Shown here one piece after another: positions 29,940 to 45,177 of a stretch of DNA of 54,942 nucleotides; positions within the stretch are counted from its first letter, which is position 1; every line of letters starts with the position of its first letter. Below the pieces are notes generated by a model. It worked only from the letters and a program-made list of their open reading frames with translations. It searched no databases and was not told the DNA's origin. The stretch spans positions 1 through 54,942 of the forward strand of contig JAGGWK010000020.1 of assembly GCA_021157525.1 (NCBI GenBank), written 5' to 3'. The translations under genes were made by a program, and so were the position numbers. Source of the DNA: Candidatus Cloacimonadota bacterium (lineage in GTDB: Bacteria; Cloacimonadota; Cloacimonadia; Cloacimonadales; TCS61).

Positions 29940-30323
29940 TTAGTTCAATAAAACACTTAAATCAACACCGGCTACTACATCTACCCCCGCATACACTTCA
30001 AGAATGTAGATGAGTATAAACACCAAGGAAACAACTCCCAGGGAAAGCACGGTGTAGAAAAGAAAGCGAAGTATTTCCATCCTGGTACCTTCCGCCAGAG
30101 AACGATGCACCAAACGGTCATCAGCCCGTTTCTCTTCACCGATAATAAATACCAGAAACAACGATTTGAAAAGCCAGAAATTGAAACGGACATTTATGAA
30201 CTTCTTCGTGGCTTCATGGGAATTATACCGTTTGGCGATATGCCGCACAGATTCCCTTTGTTCCTCACTAAGGGTTTGCCAAAACTCCGGTTCAATAACC
30301 TCTATCTTCTCCTTCTGCTTCAC
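29940..30323 (-). CDS. Small two-helix membrane protein of unknown function
   Basis: 127 residues, no recognised family. The first 45 residues are charged (E-K-I-E-V-I-E-P-E, then E-E-Q-R-E-S-V). Two hydrophobic helices follow, about residues 47-62 (F-N-F-W-L-F-K-S-L-F) and 87-113 (F-L-F-Y-T-V-L-S-L-G), joined by a charged loop. The start is a GTG at 30323 with AGGAGG about ten bases upstream; no better start is seen. It lies just downstream of priA but has its own TTGACACATATA box, 45 bases upstream of its start. Confidence 0.6.
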   Translation of the reverse strand: MKQKEKIEVIEPEFWQTLSEEQRESVRHIAKRYNSHEATKKFINVRFNFWLFKSLFLVFIIGEEKRADDRLVHRSLAEGTRMEILRFLFYTVLSLGVVSLVFILIYILEVYAGVDVVAGVDLSVLLN

Positions 30324-30425: not shown

Positions 30426-32810
30426 TTACATCAGGCTCAGGGGATCAATGTCTATAATAGCCCGTATCGAGGATGGCAGAGCCAGATGCTCTTTGAGAAA
30501 TGCTATTGCGGCAGAAAGGACGGATGCACTTTCGGCCTTTAATATGATGTGATATCGATACATATTTTGCAGCCGGGTGAGAGGCGTGGGAGTAGGGCCC
30601 AACACAGTAAGCTCTTCAACACTGAAAGAACCTTTAAGTTTCTCGATTACCTTGAAGTTTTTATCCAGTTCACGCTTGAGAAAACGTTCCTGCTTATGGG
30701 AAAACACCATCCTGCCCAGACGTGAAAAGGGTGGATAAAACAGGCCTCTGCGATAAGATAATTCTTCTGCGGCAAAGGATGCATAGTCCTGTCGCACCGC
30801 CAATCGTATTGCATAATGCTCCGGATTATAGGTCTGGATAATCACTTCACCCGGTTTTTCGCCTCTTCCTGAGCGACCCGCAACTTGTGTCAAAAGCTGA
30901 TACGTTCGTTCCGCTGCACGGAAATCCGGGAAGTTCAGCCCAATATCCGCCGATATCACCCCTACCAGCGTTACTCCGGGAAAGTCCAATCCTTTGGCGA
31001 TCATTTGCGTTCCCAGCAGGATGTCCACCGACCCTTCCTTCATGCGCTGATACATCACGTCGTAACTGTCCTTTTTGGTTGTGGTATCGCTGTCCATCCG
31101 CAGGATGCGTGCACTGGGATACAGGAGTTTCAATTGTTTTTCTATCTGTTGCGTCCCCGGTGCGCCGTACATAAAGAGAAAGCTCCCGCAGGTTTTACAG
31201 GTTCTGGGTTCTGGCATGCTAAAGCCACAATAATGGCAGTGCAGCTCCTTTTGATAGCTGTGATAGGTAAGACTCACGGCGCAGTCGGGACATTGATACA
31301 GAGCTCCGCACTGTACGCATTGCACATAGGATGCATGTCCCCGGCGATTGTGCAGCAGGATAACCTGCTGCTTCAGCCGCAGTCGTTCCTCTATTTGATG
31401 GAGTAATTCATCCGAGAATATTTTGTTCTCGCTCTGTATTCCCCGCATATTGATGATTTCGACTGTCGGCATTGGGCGCGCTACAGGACGCTGTGTAAGC
31501 TTGAACAGTACATATTTCCCCGAAAGAGCGTTATACCACGTTTCCAGCGAAGGCGTGGCAGAGCCCAGGACCACCACCGCATTATTGATGCGCGCCCGGA
31601 CAATCGCCACGTCCCGGGCACTGTACCGCGGTGTTTTGTCTTGTTTGTAACTTCCTTCGTGCTCTTCATCAATCAATATCACACCGATGTTTTTCAAAGG
31701 CGCAAAAACAGCGCTACGGGCTCCTATCACGATGCCGCATTGTCCCGAATGGATCATGTGCCACTGTTCGTAGCGTTCCCGGTCGTTGAGATGGCTATGT
31801 AAAATGGCGATTTCTTCATCGAAGGCACAACGGAACCGTGCCACCATTTGGGGAGTCAGGGATATTTCGGGAATTAGCATAAGGGCAGTTTTGCCCAGTG
31901 CTCTGCAGCGGCGGATGAGCTCGATATACACTTCGGTTTTCCCACTGCCGGTAACCCCATAGAGAAGGTTAGTATGAAAACTGTTGCTTTCCAGTTGATC
32001 CCGAAGCGTAGCGATCACATTGAGTTGCTCTTCGGTAAGGGTAATGTCCTTGGGCAATATGGTTACCGGAGAAAGGATTGATTTTGGCCGGATTTCCCTG
32101 GGCTCAATGCGTATCAATCCCTTTTCCCGTAGCCCCTTCACCCGGGCGTAAGAAAATTCCTTCGCAATGGTTGCCAGGGGAAATTCCTTATCCAGATTTG
32201 TAATGTAATTATAGAGCTCCTGCTGGGTTTCATTGAGTTTCGGCATTTCCGTTACATCCAGACGCACCACAAAGTTCATTACTTTTTTCTGGATTTTGGC
32301 ATCGTACACTCTGGTAATATCTATCAGCCCGGCCGCTTCCAAACCCTCCAGCCAATAGTAAAAACCCGGTACTCGCGCCACATCTTTCAGTGCAGAGATT
32401 TGCATTTCCACAGAAGGCGCCATCTTCTCCAGGATCGCCACCTCTTCTGCCGTACAGGATGCAGGGATGATGGGAATTTTGCGGGTGGTTGTCTGCTGTA
32501 ACTCTATGCTTATCCCGCTGGGAAGCATTGCAAAAAGTACTTTCCCAACTGCGGCACAGTAGTATTTGCTCATCCATCCTGCAAGGCGCAGTTGCTCGGC
32601 AAAGAGCAATGACTCGGTATCTATTATTTCCAGTATCTGTTTGTACTGTATGGATGCATCCGGCTTAGGTTCTTCCTGCCAGATGATACCGGTTCGCATG
32701 GAATTACTGAAGGATACCAGTACCCGACATCCAATCGGAATGGGAGTGGGGGATGAATAGGAAAAGAGTCTGTCGATATTTACAGGAATTGCTACCTGAT
32801 AGAAATACAT
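30426..32810 (-). CDS. priA: Primosomal protein N' (PriA helicase)
   Basis: A superfamily-2 helicase of about 794 residues that restarts stalled replication forks. Residues 1-220 form the DNA-binding and winged-helix part. The Walker A loop is G-V-T-G-S-G-K-T-E (near residue 290), the DEAH-type box I-D-E-E-H-E-G-S-Y-K (near 380) and V-L-G-S-A-T-P-S-L-E (near 415). Eight zinc-binding cysteines run through C-V-Q-C, C-P-D-C, C-H-Y-C and C-K-T-C (about 490-530). The ATG at 32810 is preferred to the TTG at 32813. It lies 29 bases after the AgmX-like gene and is probably the last gene of the envelope operon, which may be incidental rather than functional. Confidence 0.92.
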   Translation of the reverse strand: MYFYQVAIPVNIDRLFSYSSPTPIPIGCRVLVSFSNSMRTGIIWQEEPKPDASIQYKQILEIIDTESLLFAEQLRLAGWMSKYYCAAVGKVLFAMLPSGISIELQQTTTRKIPIIPASCTAEEVAILEKMAPSVEMQISALKDVARVPGFYYWLEGLEAAGLIDITRVYDAKIQKKVMNFVVRLDVTEMPKLNETQQELYNYITNLDKEFPLATIAKEFSYARVKGLREKGLIRIEPREIRPKSILSPVTILPKDITLTEEQLNVIATLRDQLESNSFHTNLLYGVTGSGKTEVYIELIRRCRALGKTALMLIPEISLTPQMVARFRCAFDEEIAILHSHLNDRERYEQWHMIHSGQCGIVIGARSAVFAPLKNIGVILIDEEHEGSYKQDKTPRYSARDVAIVRARINNAVVVLGSATPSLETWYNALSGKYVLFKLTQRPVARPMPTVEIINMRGIQSENKIFSDELLHQIEERLRLKQQVILLHNRRGHASYVQCVQCGALYQCPDCAVSLTYHSYQKELHCHYCGFSMPEPRTCKTCGSFLFMYGAPGTQQIEKQLKLLYPSARILRMDSDTTTKKDSYDVMYQRMKEGSVDILLGTQMIAKGLDFPGVTLVGVISADIGLNFPDFRAAERTYQLLTQVAGRSGRGEKPGEVIIQTYNPEHYAIRLAVRQDYASFAAEELSYRRGLFYPPFSRLGRMVFSHKQERFLKRELDKNFKVIEKLKGSFSVEELTVLGPTPTPLTRLQNMYRYHIILKAESASVLSAAIAFLKEHLALPSSIRAIIDIDPLSLM

Positions 32811-32839
32811 CAACAGACTCTCTTAATTCTTGAACGAAC

Positions 32840-34228
32840 TTATTGTTTCAGGAACTTGATACGGAAGCTATATTCTACAGGCTCTTTCACCGGAATCTTC
32901 CACTTAAGGATGATTTGACGCGCCTTTTCCAGGAACGAATCAGTAAAGGAACTGTTCTTTGTCACTTCCGCTGTCACAGCTTCCACTGTCCCCGAACTAT
33001 TGATAATCAAGGTGAAATCTACGGTTCCGTACATTTCGATCATCATAGATTCTACACGGTATAACTTTTCGATCTGTGGTTTATAGGTATTTACCACGTT
33101 GTTTATACTGGCAACTTCAGACAGATCTTCTGGTGAACTTTTGGCAAAATCAATACTTTGCTCTTTCACCTTCTTGATCCCGGCAAAACGACGTTTTACC
33201 TTTTCAAACTGAGCTTTGCTTTCGATCTTTGTCACTTTAAAGTCACCCACTCCAGAGCCTAAACTGGCCAGGTCAACCTCTTCCAATCCGCTACCGGTTC
33301 CTACATCCAGACCACCAAGGTCACCAAGGTCGGCAAGCCCTGCACTACTAGATGAGAGGTCAAAATCGCCGGCTCCTTCCACTTCCAGAGCTGCAATGCC
33401 ACTGGAACCTTTGCGAGCGTCCGAGCTGCCACTACCAGCGCCGCCAGTAGCTACTGCGATTTGTTCTACCTGGGTAACTTCAAGTAATTCTGCTGACATG
33501 TCGCCGCCGTCACCGCCACCGGAAGCGCTTACATCCAGATCCATCCCAAACTCAGAAGCGAATTGCTCTGCTGAGGTTTGTTGGGCCTGCTGTACCACTT
33601 CTTCAGCTTGCTCGGCACTTTCGGCTTTTTGGGTAGTAACGTCATACACCGGTTCTTCTGGTGTTTCTTCCACTGTGGGAACTTCCACCTGCACCAAGGT
33701 TGCCATATCCACTTTTTCAAACTGCTCTGCAAAAGTCGCCTGTACTGGCGGCTCATAGGTCAGCTCGAAAAATGTGGCGAGACCGATGGTGATGAGGATT
33801 GCGGCAAAGACCATTATCGACGTCTGTTTCTGGAGGGTGGTTTTTTCTGGGAAGCGGGAGAACTTCTTGGCCATCTGCTTGATGTACGCCGGTATCGTTT
33901 TATGATATGGTATCTGGAAGAAGTACTTAATCTCCCAGTCATTCAGCAAAGTAACCGAACCAGTATCATCCACCTTAATATCAATTTCACTTTTTTTACC
34001 GGAATCTGACTTCATCGAAGGATGAAGGTGCAGTTTCCACCCGGCACCATGTTTGGTAACAAGGGTAAATTTTGCCGGAAATGAATCTGACAAAATCTGC
34101 CAGGGCAAAAACTTGTCGGAGCCGATGACATGGTGCTTTGTGAAGTCACGGTGTTCAAGGGCACGATCCAGTAATTTACCTTTGTAATAGAGCTCAAGGA
34201 CGAGGATTTTTGTTTCTTGTGTGCTCAT
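32840..34228 (-). CDS. AgmX/GltG-like energy-transducing protein with TonB-type C-terminal domain
   Basis: 462 residues with a single transmembrane helix at about 137-155. The 110 cytoplasmic N-terminal residues form a beta-rich domain without a firm match (perhaps FHA-like, as in GltG). The periplasmic part begins with an acidic Pro/Glu/Val stretch, then a long Gly/Ser/Asp-rich linker (about 225-325), and ends in an AgmX/PglI-TonB-like domain (about 370-462; Y-G-T-V-D-F-T-L-I-I-N-S-S-G-T-V and W-K-I-P-V). This architecture spans the periplasm and couples inner-membrane motors to outer-membrane partners. It overlaps the ExbD gene by four bases, and the ExbB-ExbD-ExbD genes directly precede it. 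Confidence 0.8.
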   Translation of the reverse strand: MSTQETKILVLELYYKGKLLDRALEHRDFTKHHVIGSDKFLPWQILSDSFPAKFTLVTKHGAGWKLHLHPSMKSDSGKKSEIDIKVDDTGSVTLLNDWEIKYFFQIPYHKTIPAYIKQMAKKFSRFPEKTTLQKQTSIMVFAAILITIGLATFFELTYEPPVQATFAEQFEKVDMATLVQVEVPTVEETPEEPVYDVTTQKAESAEQAEEVVQQAQQTSAEQFASEFGMDLDVSASGGGDGGDMSAELLEVTQVEQIAVATGGAGSGSSDARKGSSGIAALEVEGAGDFDLSSSSAGLADLGDLGGLDVGTGSGLEEVDLASLGSGVGDFKVTKIESKAQFEKVKRRFAGIKKVKEQSIDFAKSSPEDLSEVASINNVVNTYKPQIEKLYRVESMMIEMYGTVDFTLIINSSGTVEAVTAEVTKNSSFTDSFLEKARQIILKWKIPVKEPVEYSFRIKFLKQ

Positions 34229-34758
34229 AATCCCAGTACCTCTTGCTTGTTATCGGTGTGGATTGCTGAAAAATAGATATTGGCAAAAGATGCATTTGCA
34301 CTGAATTTGATAAACTCAGTGATATATCTGCATTCCAGCATTTTATCCGCCTGTATCAGTAAACAGGGTATTTTATTACCCTGTTTGATCTGGGTTGCTT
34401 CTAAACGGAGATAGTTGAGCAAGGTCTGACGAATCTCTGGTTTGCCCATGAAATCCTGTAACGTCCCCACTTCAATGTTATCTGTTCCATAGAGAATCTT
34501 ATCGGTATAGATCTTCACAAAAACCGCCTGACCACTGTCGATCAGCTTATTCTTTGTTATCGTAGTAGGTAGTTGCATATTGCGCGGCGGGGTCTTCTGT
34601 GTTGCATCCATCGCGATGTTTTTGATCATGAATATCAGGAGAATTGTCAGGATATCTAAGAGTGACGTTATGTTCAGGCTTTTTGCAGCGGAACCCTTTT
34701 TCCTGGCTACAAATTTCCCGCCCATTCCGCGGTTTGGTTTTACTGCTACTCGTTTCAT
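34225..34758 (-). CDS. ExbD/TolR-type proton-channel subunit (with channel Asp)
   Basis: 177 residues: a basic cytoplasmic tail, one transmembrane helix (about residues 31-50) that begins T-S-L-L-D-I-L-T, and a periplasmic domain. The Asp at about residue 35 is where ExbD/TolR/MotB carry the ion-binding carboxylate, so this subunit looks competent. Together with ExbB it would form an inner-membrane motor using the ion gradient. It lies nine bases after the other ExbD-like gene and overlaps the AgmX-like gene. Confidence 0.8.
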   Translation of the reverse strand: MKRVAVKPNRGMGGKFVARKKGSAAKSLNITSLLDILTILLIFMIKNIAMDATQKTPPRNMQLPTTITKNKLIDSGQAVFVKIYTDKILYGTDNIEVGTLQDFMGKPEIRQTLLNYLRLEATQIKQGNKIPCLLIQADKMLECRYITEFIKFSANASFANIYFSAIHTDNKQEVLGL

Positions 34759-34767
34759 AAGATACCC

Positions 34768-35271
34768 CTATTTCTTTCGGTAAAGCTTCGTGGATGTCGT
34801 CAAGTATTTCACACTGGGAAACCCATTGTTTTTACACAAGTCTATCGCACGGAGCAATATGTCGTATTTTACGTCCGGGGCAGGCAGTAACTCTACTGTG
34901 TCCTGATTTTGATTTTCTTGAGCCAGAGATGCAAGGATCTCATCCAGTTTTACAAAATCATATTCCCCGGCGCTGTCACTTTGCCTTTTGGGGATGGTCG
35001 TGATTTCTTCGTCTTCACCCACTTTCACTTCAAAGCGATCGGAGTAAAGAGCCAGAACAATGCGCACCGGAGGTTGAACCTCCGCCTGCTCTGTAGCACC
35101 ACCACTTCCAGTCGTTGGCAAAGTGATTTCCAGCATCGCAAGATGTACCGAAACCATTATTGTCATCAACATAGGGATGATAACGATGAAAAGATTCATG
35201 ATCGGGATAAGATTGGGCTCTTTCGGTTCCCGTTTAGAGAGCTTTCGGTTCTTAGATGGACCGTAAGCCAT
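34768..35271 (-). CDS. ExbD/TolR-like subunit lacking the channel Asp
   Basis: 167 residues with the same layout as its neighbour: basic tail, one helix (about 20-45; P-I-M-N-L-F-I-V-I-I-P-M) and a periplasmic domain. The conserved Asp position appears to be Asn26, so this copy may not carry ions. Paired ExbD-like proteins occur in the Agl motor of Myxococcus and in other Exb systems. It lies four bases after exbB and nine before the second ExbD gene, so all three motor genes are co-transcribed. Confidence 0.75.
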   Translation of the reverse strand: MAYGPSKNRKLSKREPKEPNLIPIMNLFIVIIPMLMTIMVSVHLAMLEITLPTTGSGGATEQAEVQPPVRIVLALYSDRFEVKVGEDEEITTIPKRQSDSAGEYDFVKLDEILASLAQENQNQDTVELLPAPDVKYDILLRAIDLCKNNGFPSVKYLTTSTKLYRKK

Positions 35272-35275
35272 AATG

Positions 35276-35998
35276 CTATCCTTTCATCGAATAAGAAATT
35301 TGATTGATGATTTTTACACTATACTCATCGATATCGTTGATGATTCTATCTGCCCGAGCTTGGAGGGCGCCCTTTACAAACATCGTAGGGATGGCAACGA
35401 TCAAACCGTATGCGGTAGTTCCCATGGCCATAGAGATACCTTCTGTAAGAAGACGGCTTTTGTCGGCTTCTGGAGCATTTGCCAATGCATCAAAAGCTGC
35501 TACCAGACCAAAAATTGTTCCCAGCAGCCCCACCAGAGTGGCTACCTGAGCAATGATGTCAAACCAGAACAGGCCGCTTTCTATTTTGGGAATGGTTTGC
35601 AGACCACTCTCATCAAAAGCATTTTGAACACTACGCTCAATGGCACGTTTGTCAGATGAAGCCCTACGACCATCCCGATAGCCCAATAAACCGCTCCAGA
35701 AAATAAATCCGATAGTTGTTTTTTTGAACTGCTCAGAAATCTTTATTGCTTCATCCACTTGATCATTACGGATGTAACCCTTCAACTTCAGGTAAAACTC
35801 TTGACTGTCGATTTTTTCCCTTACAGAGAGCTGTAGAGCTTTTACGATTGCCATGGCGATCATAACCAACAGTAAGAGACTGATGATGTGCATGAAAATA
35901 CCACCTTCCATGTACATTTGGCCAATTGGCTTGGCGGATAGCGTTCCTACACTCATCAGTATAACCAAAACTAGTGCAAATTTTGCAGCGAATTTCAT
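35276..35998 (-). CDS. exbB: ExbB/TolQ/MotA-type proton-channel protein
   Basis: 240 residues. An N-terminal signal-like helix (M-K-F-A-A-K-F to about residue 22) is followed by a second helix (about 33-55), a cytoplasmic domain and two helices in the C-terminal half (about 145-175 and 190-215). The conserved TolQ/ExbB segment is clear: A-Q-V-A-T-L-V-G-L-L-G-T-I-F-G-L-V, then G-I-S-M-A-M-G-T-T-A-Y-G-L-I-V-A-I-P. A cleaved leader before an ExbB core is common in FCB-group proteins. It forms the motor ring with the two ExbD-like subunits encoded directly downstream. Confidence 0.88.
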   Translation of the reverse strand: MKFAAKFALVLVILMSVGTLSAKPIGQMYMEGGIFMHIISLLLLVMIAMAIVKALQLSVREKIDSQEFYLKLKGYIRNDQVDEAIKISEQFKKTTIGFIFWSGLLGYRDGRRASSDKRAIERSVQNAFDESGLQTIPKIESGLFWFDIIAQVATLVGLLGTIFGLVAAFDALANAPEADKSRLLTEGISMAMGTTAYGLIVAIPTMFVKGALQARADRIINDIDEYSVKIINQISYSMKG

Positions 35999-36018
35999 CT
36001 TCTTTAACCTCCCAGACG

Positions 36019-36264
36019 TTAATATAGTAATTTATTGGACTTTTGGATTTGCCGCTTCAAGTTCAGCCGGCTCACCCGATATAAGTGCGACTGCTTACGG
36101 GGAAGCAATGTCGTATTATCGGGTTTCATCAACTCAACTTTGATTTCTTCTGTTTTTACGTTTCTCAGTTTTTTTATCGGCCGGACGGTCTGTTTGTTTT
36201 GGGCACTTAGAGCCGCAGAACAGAGCAACATTCCCGCTACGATGCATATATTAACGATTTTCAT
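36019..36264 (-). CDS. Small secreted basic protein of the envelope operon
   Basis: 81 residues: a signal peptide to about residue 22 (A-A-L-S-A-Q), then a basic, Lys/Arg-rich mature peptide of about 59 residues (R-P-I-K-K-L-R, then R-L-N-L-K-R-Q-I-Q-K). No family is recognised. It overlaps the end of the giant TPR gene by 14 bases and precedes exbB by 20 bases, so a role in the same envelope machine is inferred from position only. Confidence 0.6.
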   Translation of the reverse strand: MKIVNICIVAGMLLCSAALSAQNKQTVRPIKKLRNVKTEEIKVELMKPDNTTLLPRKQSHLYRVSRLNLKRQIQKSNKLLY

Positions 36265-39200
36265 TGTTCACCTCAGCTTTGCGGACAATCGTGTCGCATT
36301 CGAAAATTAACCCTTTAAATTCCGTCTCTCCTACAACCTTGATCACAATTTCATTGGTACCTTTGTGCAACTGCGGCATGTCAACCCTGATACCAAGCAC
36401 CTTGTTTATCGCCGTATCCACCACCATATCCTGGTCGGTTAGTACCGCTTCCCCGTTTACCCACATCGAGATCGTCTTCTGCCCTAGTACAATAGCCCTG
36501 GCATCCACTACGTCTCCGGCAAATTCCAGAACTTTATAGAAGTACACGGTTTCTACAGCATCTTTTCTCAGTTCAGGATGCCAGATCTCTTGAGCTTCAC
36601 TCTGTTCCAATCCGTCCATCTGAGATTTGTAGAGGCGGAAGTTGGCGCTATCAGCAGCCACCCAGCCATCAGCCAGATTGATGGAATCCGGAAGAACATC
36701 ACCCTTGAGGCAATACCATGATCTATCTGAATAGAACTTCTTGGCTTCGGTAGTGCGGGCAAAATCCAGTTTTTCCTGATCGTATTGCAACGTCACTTTT
36801 GCAGAAAGCATTGCCTCGGCTGGAAGAACAAAGGCGATACGGTTTTCTGTATCTGCCGTCCCTCTGGTGGTGCTCAGAGAATATTTAATCATTGGCATCC
36901 CTGCCACCACGACAGAATCGGATTTCATATTTTCCGTAGCTATCTCCACACCGTTCAACAACACGGGAACCGTATCCTGACTTACATATTCTATGGTCAC
37001 CAATTCCGGTTTGATCTCCGTAGCTATTGTCGTGTGATACTCCCCCGGAAGGGTATTTTGTATCACAGCTACCGAATCCATGGCCACAGCATTCGGCACC
37101 AGAGTAAAGGCGGGTATGCTGTCGTTTTGCGCAGAGTGTTTCCAACTGCCGTCTGTGCAGATTATCTGATACACTTTTGGCTTTCTCACGCCCCATTCTA
37201 TCAGGCGATTCAAGGCAAGTTGAGTCCAGGTATCTTCATAATCTTTACCGTCGACAAAGGTCATCAGCACATACTGATACAGTTCACTGGCTTTTTTGTA
37301 GAAGTTCAGGGAAAGCTTCTTACCAGCCAGGCGGATGTTGTCTTTGTACTGTTTTTGCTGCACCGGGTTTGCCTTCATAGCTTCGCTGTTCAATTGCTTA
37401 GAGACATTCACAAACTTCTCAATCTGAGAGTCGGTCACCTGCCCGGCATGATCATAAATAGCGCCGGCAAGGTAAAGCAACTGCGTCCGCTTTTCAATTG
37501 GCAGGTCGTAGTTATTACCCTCTTTGATAAGAGCGATGTATTTTTCTTTATAGCTATCGGCTTTGTTCATCAGCTTTTTGACGCGATTTGCCCCGCCCAC
37601 CAGATGGTCTTTCCATTTGGTAAGCTGGTTAACCTTGATCAGAGATTGAGGCGATGCGCTCAAAAATTCGGTGTCGGCGTTGGAGATTTCTGCATCCAGC
37701 TTGGTGTAGTAGTCAATATAATCGTCGAAATAGCGGAAATGGTCGTAAGCGCTTTCTACTGGAAGCGTAAGACCATCGGCTTTGTAGCTGTCATCAGCCA
37801 CCTTGAAGCTATCGATAACCGCATGCATCTCTTCATACCGTTGCTGGGCAAACAGTGTATCTGCCCGGGCAATGTAGTACTTCATTTTTTTTACAGCAAT
37901 CGCCGTGAGCAGGTCTGCAGAAGGATCTTTTGCAAAGAGTCTGCGGGCGATTGTTTCGTAGTCAGATTCATCATTGCGCTCATAATAAATGAGGGCAGCT
38001 TTTTTCAGAAACTCGTTAGCCAGCTCATGATCGGGGTAGGTTTCTTCAAAGGCGAGGATTTGGGCCAGATACGCATCCTGCGCACCTGCGTCTTCGTAGT
38101 TTTTTATTCCCTTCAGCATGATGTTTTGGCGGGTGGTCTCGTCTACCTCCATAGATGCAGTATCGGCGTAGAGTTGCATATACATCTCTGCGGCTTTGAG
38201 CTTGTCGTTATAGGGCGCATTTTCGTACATTTCGATCACCTGCACCCGGGCCACCAGAGCTTCCGGTGATGTGGGATATTTTTCCACAAAAGCCATACGA
38301 AGTTCTTCGGCGCGTATATAGTCCGGGATGCTGTCGGCTAAAGTCCATGCACCTTTATAGGATGCAAACACTTCTTCCTTGGTCTCCATTACCGTTGCCA
38401 GATCCAGATAGAGATCGATGGCACGCAACGTATCACCACCGGCGATAAAGGAATCGATAGCTTTGTACTTAAATGCCTTTTTCTGACTCAGACTGTCCAC
38501 TTCGGCAGCGAGGCGAAGATATTGCTCTGCTGAAGCGATGTTATCGCCAGAGTCTTTGTAAGTCTTTGCCTGTGATTGAATGGCGCTGAGCAGATTTTGA
38601 CGAATGCTTTTCCTGGTCTCTTCCGGAGCAACTTCACTGGCAGCGCGGTAGTAGCTTTCTGCTTCCTTGTAATTCCCCTTATTCTGGCTGATTTCAGCCA
38701 ATCGGGCATTACAGAGCATCTGCTTATCGGGCTCCAGATTGTAGCTGAGTAACGTATTGAAATTGGCATAGGCGGCATCCATGTTGTTATGGTCATAATT
38801 CGATTCTGCCCGCTGGAACAGGATACGCACCAGCTCGGTTTCGTTACGTTGGGGGAAGAGGGTTTGATCCAGCAATTTCTGTTCATGAGCGCTGTTTGCA
38901 GCTATCAGCAGAGAATCGATGGACTCTTTGGTGTATTGAATTCCGGTAAGCTCATCCAGATAAGGTTCGGTTCCAATCCGCTCTTGTACCAGATCATGGA
39001 ATTTTTCATAATCGTAGTATTGGTCAAGAATCAAGTCCTGAACTTTGGGATGGGATTTGAATTGCGCAACGAACTCGTCTATGGTTTGTGCAGCCACAAG
39101 ATAGTAAGACGGGTTCTTGGTTTCTTCGGCCAGATTTTGGCTGGCAAGGATTTTATTCAGAGCAATTTGTTCGAAATTGGCCAGGCTGTCGGCCCCCCAG

Positions 39201-40483
39201 AAGGGTGCGTAAGCCAGATAAGAATCGGCCAATTGGGAATATTGCTGATAATTCTCAATCGTTTTATCATCGATAAAGCGGTTGAAGTATTTTGGTTCTA
39301 AGAAGCTATATGCTTTTTTCAGGATATTCAGCTGTGGCTGGATGTCCTTTTCCTGATTCATCTGAAACCAGGGAGAATCGACCGTATAATTGGTCGTCAT
39401 TCGATGATATTCCTCAGTAATCAGGTTTTCGGGAGACGCATTTCCGCGCACACGGTCGGGGTAGCGCTTGTATATAGTGATGATGGAATCGATATAGGAG
39501 GGAGAATCGAGAGCTGCCGGGTAGAGTTCCAGCATGGCATTATAGAGGTCTATCGCCTGCATTGGAGCGCTATAGTGCAGTTTCAAATCGATGCTTTCCA
39601 TCAGCACCTGTTGTGCATAATCGTCATTGGTGAGCAAGGGAACAATTTCTTTGGCCATCTCTGCAGCTTGCGAATATTGTTCAAAATCGCTGCCGTCAGA
39701 TTCGATAAGGCCAAAGGCAATGTTTTCCAATGCATCAGCCTCAAAGAATACTTTCTGAGTATCCAGAGAGTCTGCATCCATGGTGTTTAATAATTGGGTA
39801 AAATCTGAGATTGCAGCATCGAAATCACCACTGCTGAACCGTGCCCATCCCCGTTGGAACAGACCGTAGTTTTGCAGAGGATCGCCCTCGGTTTCTGCCA
39901 CCATATTAAAATAACTGGCAGCCTTTTCAAAGAGAGGGTGGGGATTTTTTGCATCCAGGGCTAAATCGAAATAGGTTGTACCCAATCGATACGCAGCCTC
40001 GGTATGATACCGGGAATCGGGGAAATCCCGGTATATCTCTTCATAGGCAGCCAGGATATCGCTAAAGCGATCTTCCTGCAAGCGCAGAGAATCCGGCCAG
40101 TTTTCGGCAAATTCAATGTTCATCTGCCGGCGATTGTCACGGTTATCTATCTGTGCCCGAGTAGCATAATACGCCCAGTTATACAGCACCACATCCTTTT
40201 GCGTAAAATCAGGATCATTACGCAGCACCTGTGCGTAGTAGCGGCTGACGATGTCTGGTTGGCCCACATAGAGCTCGGTACTCATCTCGGCGAGATTAAA
40301 GTACATGCGTGCAATATCAGGATGGTGTGGATTCGCCCGAACGAAGTCATAGGTTTTGTCGAAGATTTCCTGTTTGAAGGCAAGCTTCTCGAGATATTTC
40401 TCCTGCAATTCCTGCGACACATTCTGAGCAAAAAGGCCAAAACCCAGCGTCATCAGAATGAGGGATATGATATATTTATTCAT
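36251..40483 (-). CDS. Giant exported TPR protein with a C-terminal beta-sandwich
   Basis: About 1410 residues. I chose the ATG at 40483, which gives a clean signal peptide (M-N-K-Y-I-I-S-L-I-L to F-A-Q-N); a frame extended to 40519 overlaps the upstream gene more. Residues about 30-1050 are helical with many tetratricopeptide-like repeats (e.g. Y-F-N-L-A-E, A-A-Y-R-L-G-T-T-Y, A-E-S-Y-Y-R-A-A). The last 350 residues are beta-rich and include a segment like galactose-binding or jelly-roll domains (V-Y-F-Y-K-V-L-E-F, M-W-V-N-G-E-A-V-L, K-G-T-N-E-I-V-I-K). A large periplasmic or outer-membrane-associated scaffold is likely. By parts list it resembles AgmK/GltI of Myxococcus, but homology is not shown. 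Confidence 0.75.
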   Translation of the reverse strand: MNKYIISLILMTLGFGLFAQNVSQELQEKYLEKLAFKQEIFDKTYDFVRANPHHPDIARMYFNLAEMSTELYVGQPDIVSRYYAQVLRNDPDFTQKDVVLYNWAYYATRAQIDNRDNRRQMNIEFAENWPDSLRLQEDRFSDILAAYEEIYRDFPDSRYHTEAAYRLGTTYFDLALDAKNPHPLFEKAASYFNMVAETEGDPLQNYGLFQRGWARFSSGDFDAAISDFTQLLNTMDADSLDTQKVFFEADALENIAFGLIESDGSDFEQYSQAAEMAKEIVPLLTNDDYAQQVLMESIDLKLHYSAPMQAIDLYNAMLELYPAALDSPSYIDSIITIYKRYPDRVRGNASPENLITEEYHRMTTNYTVDSPWFQMNQEKDIQPQLNILKKAYSFLEPKYFNRFIDDKTIENYQQYSQLADSYLAYAPFWGADSLANFEQIALNKILASQNLAEETKNPSYYLVAAQTIDEFVAQFKSHPKVQDLILDQYYDYEKFHDLVQERIGTEPYLDELTGIQYTKESIDSLLIAANSAHEQKLLDQTLFPQRNETELVRILFQRAESNYDHNNMDAAYANFNTLLSYNLEPDKQMLCNARLAEISQNKGNYKEAESYYRAASEVAPEETRKSIRQNLLSAIQSQAKTYKDSGDNIASAEQYLRLAAEVDSLSQKKAFKYKAIDSFIAGGDTLRAIDLYLDLATVMETKEEVFASYKGAWTLADSIPDYIRAEELRMAFVEKYPTSPEALVARVQVIEMYENAPYNDKLKAAEMYMQLYADTASMEVDETTRQNIMLKGIKNYEDAGAQDAYLAQILAFEETYPDHELANEFLKKAALIYYERNDESDYETIARRLFAKDPSADLLTAIAVKKMKYYIARADTLFAQQRYEEMHAVIDSFKVADDSYKADGLTLPVESAYDHFRYFDDYIDYYTKLDAEISNADTEFLSASPQSLIKVNQLTKWKDHLVGGANRVKKLMNKADSYKEKYIALIKEGNNYDLPIEKRTQLLYLAGAIYDHAGQVTDSQIEKFVNVSKQLNSEAMKANPVQQKQYKDNIRLAGKKLSLNFYKKASELYQYVLMTFVDGKDYEDTWTQLALNRLIEWGVRKPKVYQIICTDGSWKHSAQNDSIPAFTLVPNAVAMDSVAVIQNTLPGEYHTTIATEIKPELVTIEYVSQDTVPVLLNGVEIATENMKSDSVVVAGMPMIKYSLSTTRGTADTENRIAFVLPAEAMLSAKVTLQYDQEKLDFARTTEAKKFYSDRSWYCLKGDVLPDSINLADGWVAADSANFRLYKSQMDGLEQSEAQEIWHPELRKDAVETVYFYKVLEFAGDVVDARAIVLGQKTISMWVNGEAVLTDQDMVVDTAINKVLGIRVDMPQLHKGTNEIVIKVVGETEFKGLIFECDTIVRKAEVNNENR

Positions 40484-42437
40484 GGACAAGCTCTTTTTGG
40501 TATTGTTGATACTGTTCATCTTTTTTCAGGGAGTACTTGAACAACACATCAAGCATCTCCATTTGATACTGCTGATTTTGCCCAACCACATCATCGGTGA
40601 AGGTTTGTATCAGAGAATCGTAGGTATTTTGCACTTCGGCAAATTCTGCTGCCAGTACGTCACGCTCCTTGCCCATATAGCGGGCAATGCGTTTGTTGAA
40701 GTTCTCAGCAATATCACCCTGCAAAGAGCGGTATTCCTGTTTGCTCTGCTCCATTGCAGCGATTTCGTTATCGATCAGCTGTTCAACCTCGTCGTTCTGA
40801 TACATCTGAAAATAGTATCGCGAAAGCACATCAAGAGCATCGATATCGGCTTGGGTAAGACTTGCCTGAATCCGGGCAATTGCTGCCTGTTGCGGATCAT
40901 CAGCATGTATTGCTTCCAGATCAAGCCACTCTTTTTTGCGGGATGCTTCGACACGTTTTGTCTGAGCAAGTTCTTGAGCCAAAGCAATATCTCCAGGGGT
41001 CATCTCAGGGCTCAACATATAAATCTTTATAAATTCCAGAGATACCAGATTGGTGTCGATAGCGGCTATTTCTCGCTCGATAATTTCAGGAATCCGGTTG
41101 TTTTTTTGGTTTTGCGCCAAAGCAATGACCTGATCTATGTTATTAAGGGTATTGATGTAGTAGAAGTACTCATTCTCTAAAAGCAGCATGATATCTACTT
41201 TGTCGTCATGACGTCCTACATACATCTCTTTTAACAGTTCGTTCGTTGTTACGATGCTGTTTTCGAGGTTCGAGATTACCGTATCAGCGGTAGAAGCCGA
41301 ATTGATGGTCCGATTATAGTCATCCAGAAGAGCTCTCTTTTCTCGCAGAGTATTCAATATCGCATCATTGTGCTCGATAAACTGAGTAACATTTTTTTCA
41401 AACTCTTCAGGGCTTTCCATTTCCAAATCCAGCGCGTAAGCCAATACACGTGCAGGAATGGTATAATCAGAGAATTTGTCTTTTGCCAATACTTTGATGC
41501 AGTAATCTTTGGCCGTTGCGTAGTCGTCATCCAAAGCAAAGCGAACGCCTATCTCATAGAGCAATTCGTCGTCGATGGCATCTTTTTCCATGGCAGCATA
41601 CTGTGCATAATAGAGCATTGCCCGTTCGTGATCCCCATGCTCATCGTAGAGACGAGCCAGGGATACAATCACAAAACTGTAATGCGGCGTTTCTGGAGGA
41701 TAGTTGTTCTGCAATTGCGTAAATGCGGACAAGGCGGCATCAATGCCTTCCTGATCATAGGTAATCAAGGCCAGGAGTGCTTGCGCTCTAAAGCCAAATT
41801 CCCCATCGGCGGATAATTGATTGAACAAGGTTTTTGCTTCGTCGTAAAAGCCCTCATTATAATAGGCATTTCCCAGATTGTACTGGATGAGGGTATTCCC
41901 CGTTGCAAGCCGATTTGTGGTAACGATGTCGATGTATGAAGCAAAGTCTCCACTCTCGAAATAGAGACGAGCCGCCATCATTGCCGCAGTTGTGTATCGG
42001 TTGCTACTGGGATATTGGGTGATGAGTTGAGACAACGCATCCAGAGACGCGGAAGTATTATTATCGGCCTGATATGCCAGAGCTCGGTAGTAGAGAATGT
42101 CATCCTGATAGGAGGGAAATTCCTTGAAGATAAAGCCAAGCGCCAAAATACGTTTGTCGTATTCTGCCTGGTCCTGTTTTGGATTAATTTCCGCGATTTG
42201 AGCTTCCTGCTCTCTGAATAAGTTCTCGAGTTTTCTTGATTCACCGGACAGATTAAATTCCCGTGCTTTCTTCCGTTGTTGAGTAATGGAACTGTAGAAA
42301 GCAATTTCATGCTCTATGTTTTGTAAATCCTGTTCCTCGGATGTAATCTGTTTTATGAGTGTTTCATAATCCTCCGGCAAGCTCAAGCAGGTCGCGCTGA
42401 TGAGCGCAATCAATAAGAGGATATATAGCTTTTTCAT
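40476..42437 (-). CDS. Exported TPR/coiled-coil protein
   Basis: 653 residues with a signal peptide (M-K-K-L-Y-I-L-L-L-I-A-L to about residue 20). A coiled-coil start (about 25-75) is followed by TPR-like repeats to about 330 (A-L-D-A-L-S-Q-L-I-T-Q-Y-P, Y-N-L-G-N-A-Y-Y-N-E-G-F-Y-D-E-A) and then long, acidic, coiled-coil-rich helices to the end. The last codons overlap the start of the 1410-residue TPR gene, indicating translational coupling. It lies ten bases after the predicted barrel gene. A periplasmic adaptor role in the envelope machine is inferred. Confidence 0.75.
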   Translation of the reverse strand: MKKLYILLLIALISATCLSLPEDYETLIKQITSEEQDLQNIEHEIAFYSSITQQRKKAREFNLSGESRKLENLFREQEAQIAEINPKQDQAEYDKRILALGFIFKEFPSYQDDILYYRALAYQADNNTSASLDALSQLITQYPSSNRYTTAAMMAARLYFESGDFASYIDIVTTNRLATGNTLIQYNLGNAYYNEGFYDEAKTLFNQLSADGEFGFRAQALLALITYDQEGIDAALSAFTQLQNNYPPETPHYSFVIVSLARLYDEHGDHERAMLYYAQYAAMEKDAIDDELLYEIGVRFALDDDYATAKDYCIKVLAKDKFSDYTIPARVLAYALDLEMESPEEFEKNVTQFIEHNDAILNTLREKRALLDDYNRTINSASTADTVISNLENSIVTTNELLKEMYVGRHDDKVDIMLLLENEYFYYINTLNNIDQVIALAQNQKNNRIPEIIEREIAAIDTNLVSLEFIKIYMLSPEMTPGDIALAQELAQTKRVEASRKKEWLDLEAIHADDPQQAAIARIQASLTQADIDALDVLSRYYFQMYQNDEVEQLIDNEIAAMEQSKQEYRSLQGDIAENFNKRIARYMGKERDVLAAEFAEVQNTYDSLIQTFTDDVVGQNQQYQMEMLDVLFKYSLKKDEQYQQYQKELVHE

Positions 42438-42447
42438 AAGAACCAGA

Positions 42448-43380
42448 TTATTCTTTCATCAAGTTTTTGATTTCGTCGAGTTCTTTTTCTGCCCGTTCAC
42501 GCCGCTCTTGAATCTTGCGAAGTTCTTCCTTCAGCATATCGGCAGCGTCAGTACGTTCCGGTGATACATAGAGTTGTTCGCCAGTCGCCGTCTTCCCTGT
42601 CTGGAAGGCACGTTGGTCTTTGTTTTTCACTTCAGAGTACTTATCGAAGATGTAGGTAAGAGCAAAATCGCCGGTGAAGCTGGCGTTGTCTTTCATATTA
42701 TCTTCAACGTTAATAAGACCAATAGTCGCTTTAAGATTTCCAAAGTCATAACTCATTCCCATATTCAGATTAGCTCCACGCATCTCACCAATAAGAGTAA
42801 GATTTTGAGCGGGGCGAATCTGCAGACCGCCGAAGAAGCCCATGAAGTATTGGTCTTTTTCTCCTCGTGTGTCATAGCCACGGCTGCCAAGACCAATATT
42901 AAGGGTGGTCTCTAGAGCCTTTGACAGAGGCAAGCCACGAATTACCGCCGTCTTACTGGCAACAAAATAAGGGGTTGCTTTCACATAGATAAATGCATCA
43001 GGTAAATCCGTATGACTCTCGGGATTAGTATATTTGATGTCTGAGAAAAGGTTTTCAATCCCGATTGCAATGGCGGGATTCCGCATGCTTTCGTGAACTA
43101 CCGCATATTTGAAGTTAGCAGTTATCAGATCTTCATTCATAGCCATCAAGCCAAGTTGAAGACGATTCTTAATACCATAGTTAACGGTTCCACCGTAGAA
43201 TAACCCCTCCTCCCTGTCACTATCAGTTTGATAGTAGAGACCAGAAAGAGAGACATCGAACATCTTGTGTGGTAAAATGTAGGCCGTACGAATTCCCAGG
43301 GAATTTTCGCTCGAATACGGACTCGCAATAAGGAATTGCATCATAATTAACGCAATGATAACGAGAATTGGCTTTTTCAT
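42448..43380 (-). CDS. Predicted outer-membrane beta-barrel protein with a C-terminal coiled coil
   Basis: About 310 residues from the ATG at 43380, which follows GGAGG and gives a signal peptide (M-K-K-P-I-L-V-I-I-A-L to A-S-P). The 43 extra upstream codons in the open frame run into the yraN promoter and are rejected. Residues about 25-235 alternate hydrophobic/polar strands with Gly/Tyr turns, as in a small barrel (V-S-L-S-G-L-Y-Y-Q-T, Y-G-I-K-N-R-L-Q-L-G-L). The last 50 residues form a charged coiled coil (L-R-K-I-Q-E-R-R-E-R-A-E-K-E-L-D). It is the first gene of the nine-gene envelope operon and a candidate outer-membrane partner for the motor. Confidence 0.7.
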   Translation of the reverse strand: MKKPILVIIALIMMQFLIASPYSSENSLGIRTAYILPHKMFDVSLSGLYYQTDSDREEGLFYGGTVNYGIKNRLQLGLMAMNEDLITANFKYAVVHESMRNPAIAIGIENLFSDIKYTNPESHTDLPDAFIYVKATPYFVASKTAVIRGLPLSKALETTLNIGLGSRGYDTRGEKDQYFMGFFGGLQIRPAQNLTLIGEMRGANLNMGMSYDFGNLKATIGLINVEDNMKDNASFTGDFALTYIFDKYSEVKNKDQRAFQTGKTATGEQLYVSPERTDAADMLKEELRKIQERRERAEKELDEIKNLMKE

Positions 43381-43407
43381 CTTTTCCTCCATACAGAAAT
43401 CAATCAT

Positions 43408-43436
43408 AGATAAGAAATTGACATTTTTTCCGTCAA
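43408..43436 (-). promoter_or_regulatory. Putative promoter of the envelope operon
   Basis: Minus-strand TTGACG at 43431-43436, 50 bases before the barrel-gene ATG, with TTATCT at the -10 spacing. It overlaps the divergent yraN promoter; the two -35 boxes form an inverted repeat (TTGAC-9-GTCAA). Confidence 0.5.
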
Positions 43437-43480: not shown

Positions 43481-43855
43481 ATGAATGACAGAAAGAATCT
43501 CGGAATCCAGGGAGAAAACACCGCCACAGCCTATTTACAACGGAAGCAATATCACATTCTCGAACGCAATTATCACTCAGCTTATGGGGAAATAGACATC
43601 ATCGCCAGAAAGAATGATGTCCTTGTATTTGTGGAAGTTAAGACCAGATCTGGTTCGCTTGATACCGGTCTTTCCAGCGTCTCCCGGGGAAAACAAAAAA
43701 AAATAATCAACACTGCTCAAATCTATCTGTCCCGGCTTTCCTCTGATACACTATTGGAAACACGCTTCGATGTGATTTCTTTGACCCCTGCCGGTGATGG
43801 GACTTTCGCCATCAAACACCTAAAAGATGCTTTTCGGCCAGATTACTCCAGCTGA
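43481..43855 (+). CDS. yraN: YraN/UPF0102 family nuclease-fold protein
   Basis: 124 residues, the usual size. The restriction-endonuclease-like core is clear: G-E-N-T-A-T-A-Y-L near residue 10, the Y-G-E-I-D-I-I-A-R strand and the V-F-V-E-V-K-T-R-S strand carrying the E-x-K pair. Members are predicted Holliday-junction resolvase-like nucleases of uncertain role. It is the only plus-strand gene between 0.8 and 48.8 kb. A GAGGTG site precedes the ATG, and its 3' end overlaps the convergent GWxTD gene by 13 bases. Confidence 0.9.
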   Translation: MNDRKNLGIQGENTATAYLQRKQYHILERNYHSAYGEIDIIARKNDVLVFVEVKTRSGSLDTGLSSVSRGKQKKIINTAQIYLSRLSSDTLLETRFDVISLTPAGDGTFAIKHLKDAFRPDYSS

Positions 43856-45177
43856 TCGTAGTCAAAATTCTCTCCCAACAGATCGCGGTAATTGGGTTGC
43901 GTCGTCTCGGTTTCATCTTTTCCACTATAAATCAACCTGAAATTTCCGGTTCCTGAATTATCCATGAAAATATAGGATGTCTGCCGCGTTCCTTCGTACC
44001 GCCAGATGATATAATCCCGACTTTGTGATTGGAGAGAAAACTCAGTCTCACCCTTTTTGGTCTCATCAGGTTTTCCATATTTGATGTAAAGGCGACCTCG
44101 ATCTGATTCCCAACCATCGGAGAAAAATGAAAAATGCTGATTGGTATAGGCTAATCGCTCTTTGATATCATCGTAAAATTCATTTTTTGTGGTGGATGGT
44201 TCATAATCCCGGCTCACCCAAAACCGATTGATAAAATTCCGTTTACCCTTTTCAGACAACCCATCCCACGTGCTCTTTTTCACGTCCGGTAAGAAATACT
44301 GCACCAGTTTAAATTCCTTCTCCAGATCATTGAGCATACGGGTGAGATGGCCGGAATGCTCGATCACGCTGAAATAATCCTGTACCTGCATGGTCTTGCC
44401 TGTGATTTCATCGGTGACAATCATGATGATATTATACAATCCGGGCTCATAGTCGGAGATTTGAATCTCTTTGATGCGGTTAATCAAGGCCGAAGATTTG
44501 TTGATTTTCCCTGAAAGGGTTTCCACCTCTTCGCCGTTTCGCATCACCACGACAGATTCAGACAGATCACTCACACCCTGGGCATCCAGCCCAAAATTCC
44601 GAATCTCAAAATAGATGAAAAATGAAGAGTGCCGGGTATTGTCAAAAATATGATGCGGTTCCACATCAAACCGCATCCCGCCACGGATAAAACGCGCCCG
44701 ATATGATGAGGTGTCCGCCACGATGGCGGCACTCATTTCCAGGTCGCTGATGAGTCCATCGGGAGCAAGAAGCGGCAAAGGAACCACTTCTGATGTGGAT
44801 TCGTTGCTGCCAGTATCGGTAATTTGAACGAGCAAATCGTAGCCATCCCGTTTCATGGGCAGTACGATTTTATCCAGATAGCCATTATCGGTTTTAGTCA
44901 TATCTTCGTTTTCCAGAATGATTTTCGCCGGCATCGGATCGAAGGAATAGACGGTATTACCCTGTTGCTGCAGAGAAACAGCGATGGTGATATCCGCTGT
45001 AAAACCCTGATCTGTGCGATTGAACAGCAAATCTCTGTAAGGTATTTTATAGTTCACTTCGATTACGGTGATACCGCTATCATCTAAGAACCGGTTGGCA
45101 TCCAGATAGACATGCAGGGTTGCCAGAAGAGGCATCATGGCGAAAAGCGCGAGAGCGAAAAAAGATAGTTTTTTCAT
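43843..45177 (-). CDS. GWxTD-domain secreted protein
   Basis: 444 residues with a signal peptide (M-K-K-L-S-F-F-A-L-A-L to L-A-T). The first 280 mature residues are beta-rich. The C-terminal GWxTD domain (about 285-420) shows F-W-V-S-R-D, then S-D-G-W-E-S-D-R-G-R-L-Y-I-K-Y-G-K-P-D-E. This domain is typical of exported proteins in Cloacimonadota, Ignavibacteria, Acidobacteria and related phyla; its function is unknown. It follows dnaE by 12 bases and is probably co-transcribed. It supports the phylum placement of the window. Confidence 0.85.
   Translation of the reverse strand: MKKLSFFALALFAMMPLLATLHVYLDANRFLDDSGITVIEVNYKIPYRDLLFNRTDQGFTADITIAVSLQQQGNTVYSFDPMPAKIILENEDMTKTDNGYLDKIVLPMKRDGYDLLVQITDTGSNESTSEVVPLPLLAPDGLISDLEMSAAIVADTSSYRARFIRGGMRFDVEPHHIFDNTRHSSFFIYFEIRNFGLDAQGVSDLSESVVVMRNGEEVETLSGKINKSSALINRIKEIQISDYEPGLYNIIMIVTDEITGKTMQVQDYFSVIEHSGHLTRMLNDLEKEFKLVQYFLPDVKKSTWDGLSEKGKRNFINRFWVSRDYEPSTTKNEFYDDIKERLAYTNQHFSFFSDGWESDRGRLYIKYGKPDETKKGETEFSLQSQSRDYIIWRYEGTRQTSYIFMDNSGTGNFRLIYSGKDETETTQPNYRDLLGENFDYDQLE

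Follow-up and report, generated by a model that had tools for sequence, protein, structure and literature searches.

We analyzed a 54,942-nucleotide stretch of DNA (the window) from a Candidatus Cloacimonadota bacterium (GenBank assembly GCA_021157525.1, contig JAGGWK010000020.1), which is contig C39 of a 2.2-Mb genome. Eight contiguous, co-oriented genes on its minus strand, from position 43380 to 32840, form an operon that encodes, in order of transcription, a barrel-like protein, two exported tetratricopeptide repeat (TPR) proteins, a small secreted protein, ExbB, two ExbD proteins, and a TonB-like protein, followed by priA. A sequence-only reading of the window had placed these parts in one operon and likened them to the myxobacterial gliding apparatus (Agl/Glt). 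All of the parts it named are present, as listed here (aa, amino acids).

42448 to 43380, minus strand: outer-membrane barrel-like protein, 310 aa, with a signal peptide and a conserved C-terminal coiled coil
40476 to 42437, minus strand: TPR-A, exported TPR protein, 653 aa, 75 kDa (Pfam TPR)
36251 to 40483, minus strand: TPR-B, exported TPR protein, about 1410 aa, with two predicted C-terminal beta-sandwich domains resembling carbohydrate-binding modules (CBMs)
36019 to 36264, minus strand: small secreted basic protein, 81 aa, with a conserved SNKxLY-type C terminus
35276 to 35998, minus strand: ExbB/TolQ/AglR-like proton channel subunit, 240 aa (PF01618, 1.1e-24)
34768 to 35271, minus strand: ExbD1, 167 aa (PF02472, 4.6e-12), with Asn26 at the position of the proton-carrying Asp
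34225 to 34758, minus strand: ExbD2, 177 aa (PF02472, 3.3e-7), with Asp35 retained
32840 to 34228, minus strand: GltG-like force transducer, 462 aa, with a predicted FHA-like domain (8 to 105), transmembrane helix (131 to 157), disordered linker, and TonB C-terminal domain (366 to 459)
30426 to 32813, minus strand: PriA primosomal helicase, downstream neighbor outside the machine

Neighboring genes of the operon overlap slightly or are separated by gaps of at most 26 bp. The barrel gene starts with the ATG at 43380, and the TPR-B open reading frame (ORF), counted from 40519, encodes 1422 aa (163 kDa). A Pfam scan matched ExbB, both ExbDs, and the TPRs of the two exported proteins, and promoter and terminator scans of the operon returned nothing above chance. 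The span first assigned to the machine (30426 to 43436) therefore narrows to 43380 to 32840, because 30426 to 32813 encodes PriA, named from its translation. PriA is a conserved neighbor of the operon in relatives; it was rejected as a machine component, despite its co-orientation, as a housekeeping protein.

When loci drawn from genome collections were mapped by homology, the operon order was kept wherever a contig covers the locus. It recurs in 20 further stretches of 10 to 20 kb from nine Cloacimonadota families, where intact loci keep it, and each of the 20 has a small exported ORF separating TPR-B from ExbB. Several families have a single long TPR gene in place of two, the barrel is replaced by another gene in one of the 20 loci (L105), and the greedy ORF picker masked ExbD1 or ExbB in two of them. 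Because the neighborhood is conserved phylum-wide, the operon is not merely a set of generic ExbBD genes in a shifting context. Its usual chromosomal setting is DnaE, a GWxTD protein, YraN on the opposite strand, the operon, and PriA. The two frequent upstream neighbors are encoded in the window at 43843 to 45177 (GWxTD-domain protein; TIGR04514, 1.3e-22) and at 43481 to 43855 (YraN, divergent).

Among 125 genomes of the phylum, profiles matched ExbD1 in 81, TPR-B in 87, the barrel in 85, and the full-length transducer in 81; all four markers are found in 72 genomes and none in 33. Pairwise phi values between the four genes range from 0.68 to 0.89 and are descriptive, because related genomes are not independent. 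From the order kept in relatives and the phyletic phi values, the association of the operon parts is far beyond chance. The operon is nevertheless not essential in the phylum, because several near-complete genomes lack all of it. In genome G010, a barrel gene with in-frame stops lies close to a contig end (L118:8275-9189), and TPR-B, ExbD1, and the transducer were not found in that genome, which probably holds a decaying copy. A literature search on Cloacimonadota with ExbB, Tol, or gliding found nothing on this operon.

The last gene of the operon had been read as an AgmX/GltG-like TonB-type protein. Fold searches bear out the TonB C-terminal domain, whereas the AgmX and TonB sequence models matched below their curated cutoffs: NF033768 (AgmX/PglI type) at 6.9e-6 with 26.1 versus 40 bits, and PF03544 (TonB C-terminal) at 0.005. 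Among 26 relatives, 23 match NF033768 and none matches PF00498 (FHA); a PDB sequence search and a plasmid search with the transducer gave no matches. An AlphaFold2 model built on these relatives has a beta domain at the N terminus (8 to 105) and a C-terminal domain, both confident, joined by a transmembrane helix (131 to 157) and a disordered linker. In Foldseek searches, the C-terminal domain matched TonB C-terminal domains with probabilities up to 1.0 and template modeling scores (TM-scores) by target up to 0.60. The N-terminal domain matched several FHA domains, among them FHA-1 of Rv1747 (probability 0.97, TM-score by target 0.51) and those of Dun1 and Chk2, as well as a type III secretion protein. 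Because every Foldseek E-value exceeds 0.001, the FHA assignment is moderate. The predicted architecture, FHA-like domain, transmembrane helix, linker, and TonB C-terminal domain, is thus that of GltG.

The motor genes show a strict division between the two ExbDs. With the register set against a solved ExbD structure, all 49 distinct ExbD1 sequences that cover the site of the proton-carrying Asp have Asn there, and every ExbD2 sequence that covers it has Asp. Both members of the other ExbD pair of the same genome (contig C10) carry Asp. With Asn at this position in ExbD1, only ExbD2 should carry protons, and from this residue pattern we infer an obligate ExbD1/ExbD2 heterodimer with one proton site. 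A review reports the transmembrane Asp in both AglQ and AglS and states that hetero- versus homodimerization is undecided (PMC9389320). Whether motors with two ExbDs work as heterodimers that have a single proton site can be tested cleanly with the Asn/Asp split. The nearest solved structures to ExbB are those of TolQ.

On the envelope side, the first gene encodes an exported protein, and the barrel fold that the sequence-only reading gave it is the least certain part of the system. No family scored above cutoff in the Pfam scan, beta-amphipathicity gave a p of about 0.05, and a profile search against the PDB returned coiled-coil-type chance matches only, so that the sequence weakly suggests a barrel. 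TPR-A and TPR-B probably form one unit, as they are encoded by a single gene in some families; the fusion is clear in locus L111, where the TPR-A model covers residues 49 to 635 and the TPR-B model starts at 657. Residues 1095 to 1422 of TPR-B were modeled as two beta-sandwich domains (predicted local distance difference test score, 87.6), whose best fold matches include many CBM and lectin proteins, with E-values down to 6e-7. In an NCBIfam scan, no Glt model was matched by the exported TPR proteins, which are similar in size to the Glt TPRs.

Four genomes from two genera (G004, G014, G019, and G026; loci L113, L114, L115, and L116) carry a motorless form of the locus at the same site before PriA and group together in the TPR tree as a single clade (support 1.0). 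The genes for ExbB, ExbD1, and ExbD2 and the FHA-transmembrane half of the transducer are gone, and the barrel, TPR-A, TPR-B, and small protein are kept. What remains of the transducer is a 255-aa secreted protein that matches residues 219 to 462 of the window protein (E 3e-17). In L116, the contig ends before the barrel and TPR-B is split. We rejected assembly gaps as the cause, since both flanks lie on one contig in three of the four genomes and the arrangement recurs in all four. The motor and the FHA-transmembrane half were thus lost as one module. These genomes carry three to five other ExbB genes, and another motor may act on the complex, although the sole transmembrane anchor of the remnant is its signal peptide. 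The clade constitutes a natural knockout that separates motor from scaffold.

The outer-membrane partner varies as well. In locus L105 (296-9136), the barrel gives way to a WxLIP-like chaperone plus an usher-like protein of 943 aa, followed by a TPR-A/TPR-B fusion and the full motor, and L117 (2308-12044) holds a similar set without the motor. The usher-like proteins of the two loci (908 to 943 aa) have CarboxypepD_reg domains and adjoin the TPR-A/TPR-B fusion. This replacement of the barrel suggests that the outer-membrane partner can be exchanged, as it is between Glt and Nfs.

The layout of the operon closely resembles the core of the Agl/Glt machinery. Luciano et al. (2011; PMC3169522) defined a core complex of GltC, GltD, GltE, GltG, and AglR, AglQ, and AglS, found as a single gene cluster outside the deltaproteobacteria (gamma- and betaproteobacteria and Fibrobacter) and in Geobacter, with an FHA-transmembrane-TonB layout for GltG/PglI. 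Wartel et al. (2013; PMC3858216) found that Agl-Nfs moves spore-coat polysaccharide and suggested that the core may be a basal transport machinery. The window operon likewise encodes one ExbB/TolQ-type and two ExbD/TolR-type subunits together (at the family level), a transducer with the same layout by predicted fold, and large exported TPR proteins in one cluster, as outside myxobacteria. The barrel gene adjoins a TPR gene of 650 to 670 aa as in gltB-A-C (TPR-A, 653 aa; GltC, 673 aa), GltC being a TPR protein of the periplasm with the outer-membrane barrels GltA and GltB as binding partners, and the small exported protein (81 aa) parallels gltF (89 aa). The operon differs in having two TPR genes instead of three, a transducer of 462 instead of 640 aa whose FHA-like fold has no recognizable FHA motif, CBM-like domains on TPR-B, and Asn instead of Asp in ExbD1. 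The proposed Agl/Glt parallel is partly supported: it is closer than first proposed in the layout of the transducer and of the cluster, which matches both the core complex and the Fibrobacter cluster, but the canonical FHA and AgmX models stayed below cutoff and the Asp is missing from ExbD1. Because the likeness is one of layout and predicted fold and Asp is not present in both ExbDs, we regard the operon as working like the core complex and not as a proven member. Until now the core had been described in Fibrobacter and some proteobacteria, Myxococcus being the only one in which a function was shown, and Cloacimonadota are not reported as carriers in the literature found.

A second counterpart is the FSU_2396-2403 cluster of Fibrobacter succinogenes (PMC6851124, PMC4619616), which encodes an OmpA family protein, TPR proteins of 84 and 147 kDa, FSU_2399, ExbB, two ExbDs, and TonB. 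Its expression rises on cellulose, and cellulases and a fibro-slime protein share a complex with its OmpA and first TPR proteins; the authors of that work proposed cellodextrin uptake. By annotation, the gene order is that of the window, where the TPR proteins are 75 and 163 kDa; FSU_2399, which is not described, occupies the small-protein position. The Fibrobacter cluster differs in its first gene, an OmpA family protein (56 kDa) and not a barrel of the window type, and in the sizes of TonB (32 kDa) and FSU_2401 (32 kDa).

On balance, we slightly favor the interpretation that the operon encodes a surface transport or adhesion machine, a variant of the Agl/Glt core kind. That a core-type layout recurs throughout this barely studied phylum, at a constant place in the chromosome, argues for this, and not for gliding, as the general function. 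ExbB, ExbD1, and ExbD2, assigned by family, would form the inner-membrane motor, presumably with 5:2 stoichiometry and heterodimeric ExbDs, and ExbD2 alone would carry protons. By analogy with GltG-AglR, the motor may drive the predicted FHA-transmembrane-TonB protein, whose TonB-type end could grip a periplasmic and outer-membrane subcomplex formed by the barrel, both TPR proteins, and the small protein. The order of the genes, the gene fusion, and the persistence of the TonB end where the motor is gone point to this contact. The CBM-like end of TPR-B would bind glycan, and the complex could move, present, or assemble polysaccharide-bound surface structures. Models for this last step would be Agl-Nfs with its spore-coat glycan and the Fibrobacter cluster with its ties to a cellulose-adhesion complex.

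Several observations weigh against a surface transport or adhesion machine. Its function in Cloacimonadota is argued by analogy, and about a quarter of the near-complete genomes lack the operon. The CBM-like matches of the TPR-B end have TM-scores below 0.3, as the tandem domains pack differently, and CBM-like folds frequently bind no sugar. The transducer has neither a recognizable FHA motif in its sequence nor, in its transmembrane helix, the SHLS/His motor-binding motif of TonB and TolA (PMC12204202), so that motor coupling may differ.

The operon could alternatively substitute for Tol-Pal in maintaining or constricting the outer membrane, with the TonB-like arm pulling the TPR-barrel complex at division, which we consider unlikely. 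It shares with Tol-Pal a TolQ/TolR-like motor, with TolQ nearest to ExbB among solved structures, and a TolA/TonB-type C-terminal domain. TolB_N and OmpA/Pal domains were found neither in the operon nor in the whole genome, and TolB_N occurs in 3 of the 125 phylum genomes. However, OmpA domains occur in 97 of the 125 genomes, with or without the operon, and one clade does without the motor; an essential system would also not be expected to be missing from a quarter of near-complete genomes. The operon further differs from Tol-Pal in its FHA-like cytoplasmic domain, two ExbDs, and lack of an SHLS motif. The idea that the operon is complementary to Pal was rejected, as OmpA domains both coexist with it and occur without it.

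Of the roles suggested by the sequence-only reading (movement, surface transport, or outer-membrane maintenance), movement is improbable, and surface transport or adhesion fits better. A true gliding motor like Agl-Glt of M. xanthus would move along the cell and push on focal adhesions, and the parts and their order do parallel gltB-A-C, gltD-E-F-G, and aglRQS. However, MglB (Robl_LC7) scored above cutoff in none of the 125 genomes (MglA was not searched for), the literature found holds no motility report for Cloacimonadota, ExbD1 lacks the Asp, and motorless loci persist.

Least probable is an energized outer-membrane importer or exporter, with a barrel channel opened by the TonB-like arm and the TPR proteins as adaptors: the TonB-type C-terminal domain, the barrel as first gene, the cellodextrin uptake proposed for Fibrobacter, and the usher-like partner in L105 favor it, but neither a plug domain nor a TonB-dependent receptor is encoded in the operon, a separate, ordinary TonB system complete with its receptor lies elsewhere in the genome, and barrel and TPRs are retained in motorless loci. 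As the sequence-only reading had noted, TolB, Pal, and a TonB-dependent receptor are all missing from the operon. The separate system (contig C10) has the same ExbB-ExbD-ExbD-TonB set and differs in its adjoining receptor, Asp in both ExbDs, and a TonB_C match well above cutoff. An ordinary TonB system at L062:8672-14006 comprises a receptor (CarboxypepD_reg and Plug), ExbB, two ExbDs, and TonB.

Beyond the surface transport or adhesion machine itself, we tentatively propose, as a possibility short of an even chance, that the operon represents a distinct class of proton motor, in which ExbD1(Asn) and ExbD2(Asp) would pair obligately, giving each axle a single proton site, and would drive glycan-binding outer-membrane complexes. 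A naturally occurring motorless derivative would go with it, its TonB end now a free scaffold component in the periplasm, so that the envelope complex would also function in the absence of its motor.

Elsewhere in the window, a 127-aa probable membrane protein with no family assigned is encoded at 29940 to 30323, between priA and an acyl-CoA dehydrogenase gene.

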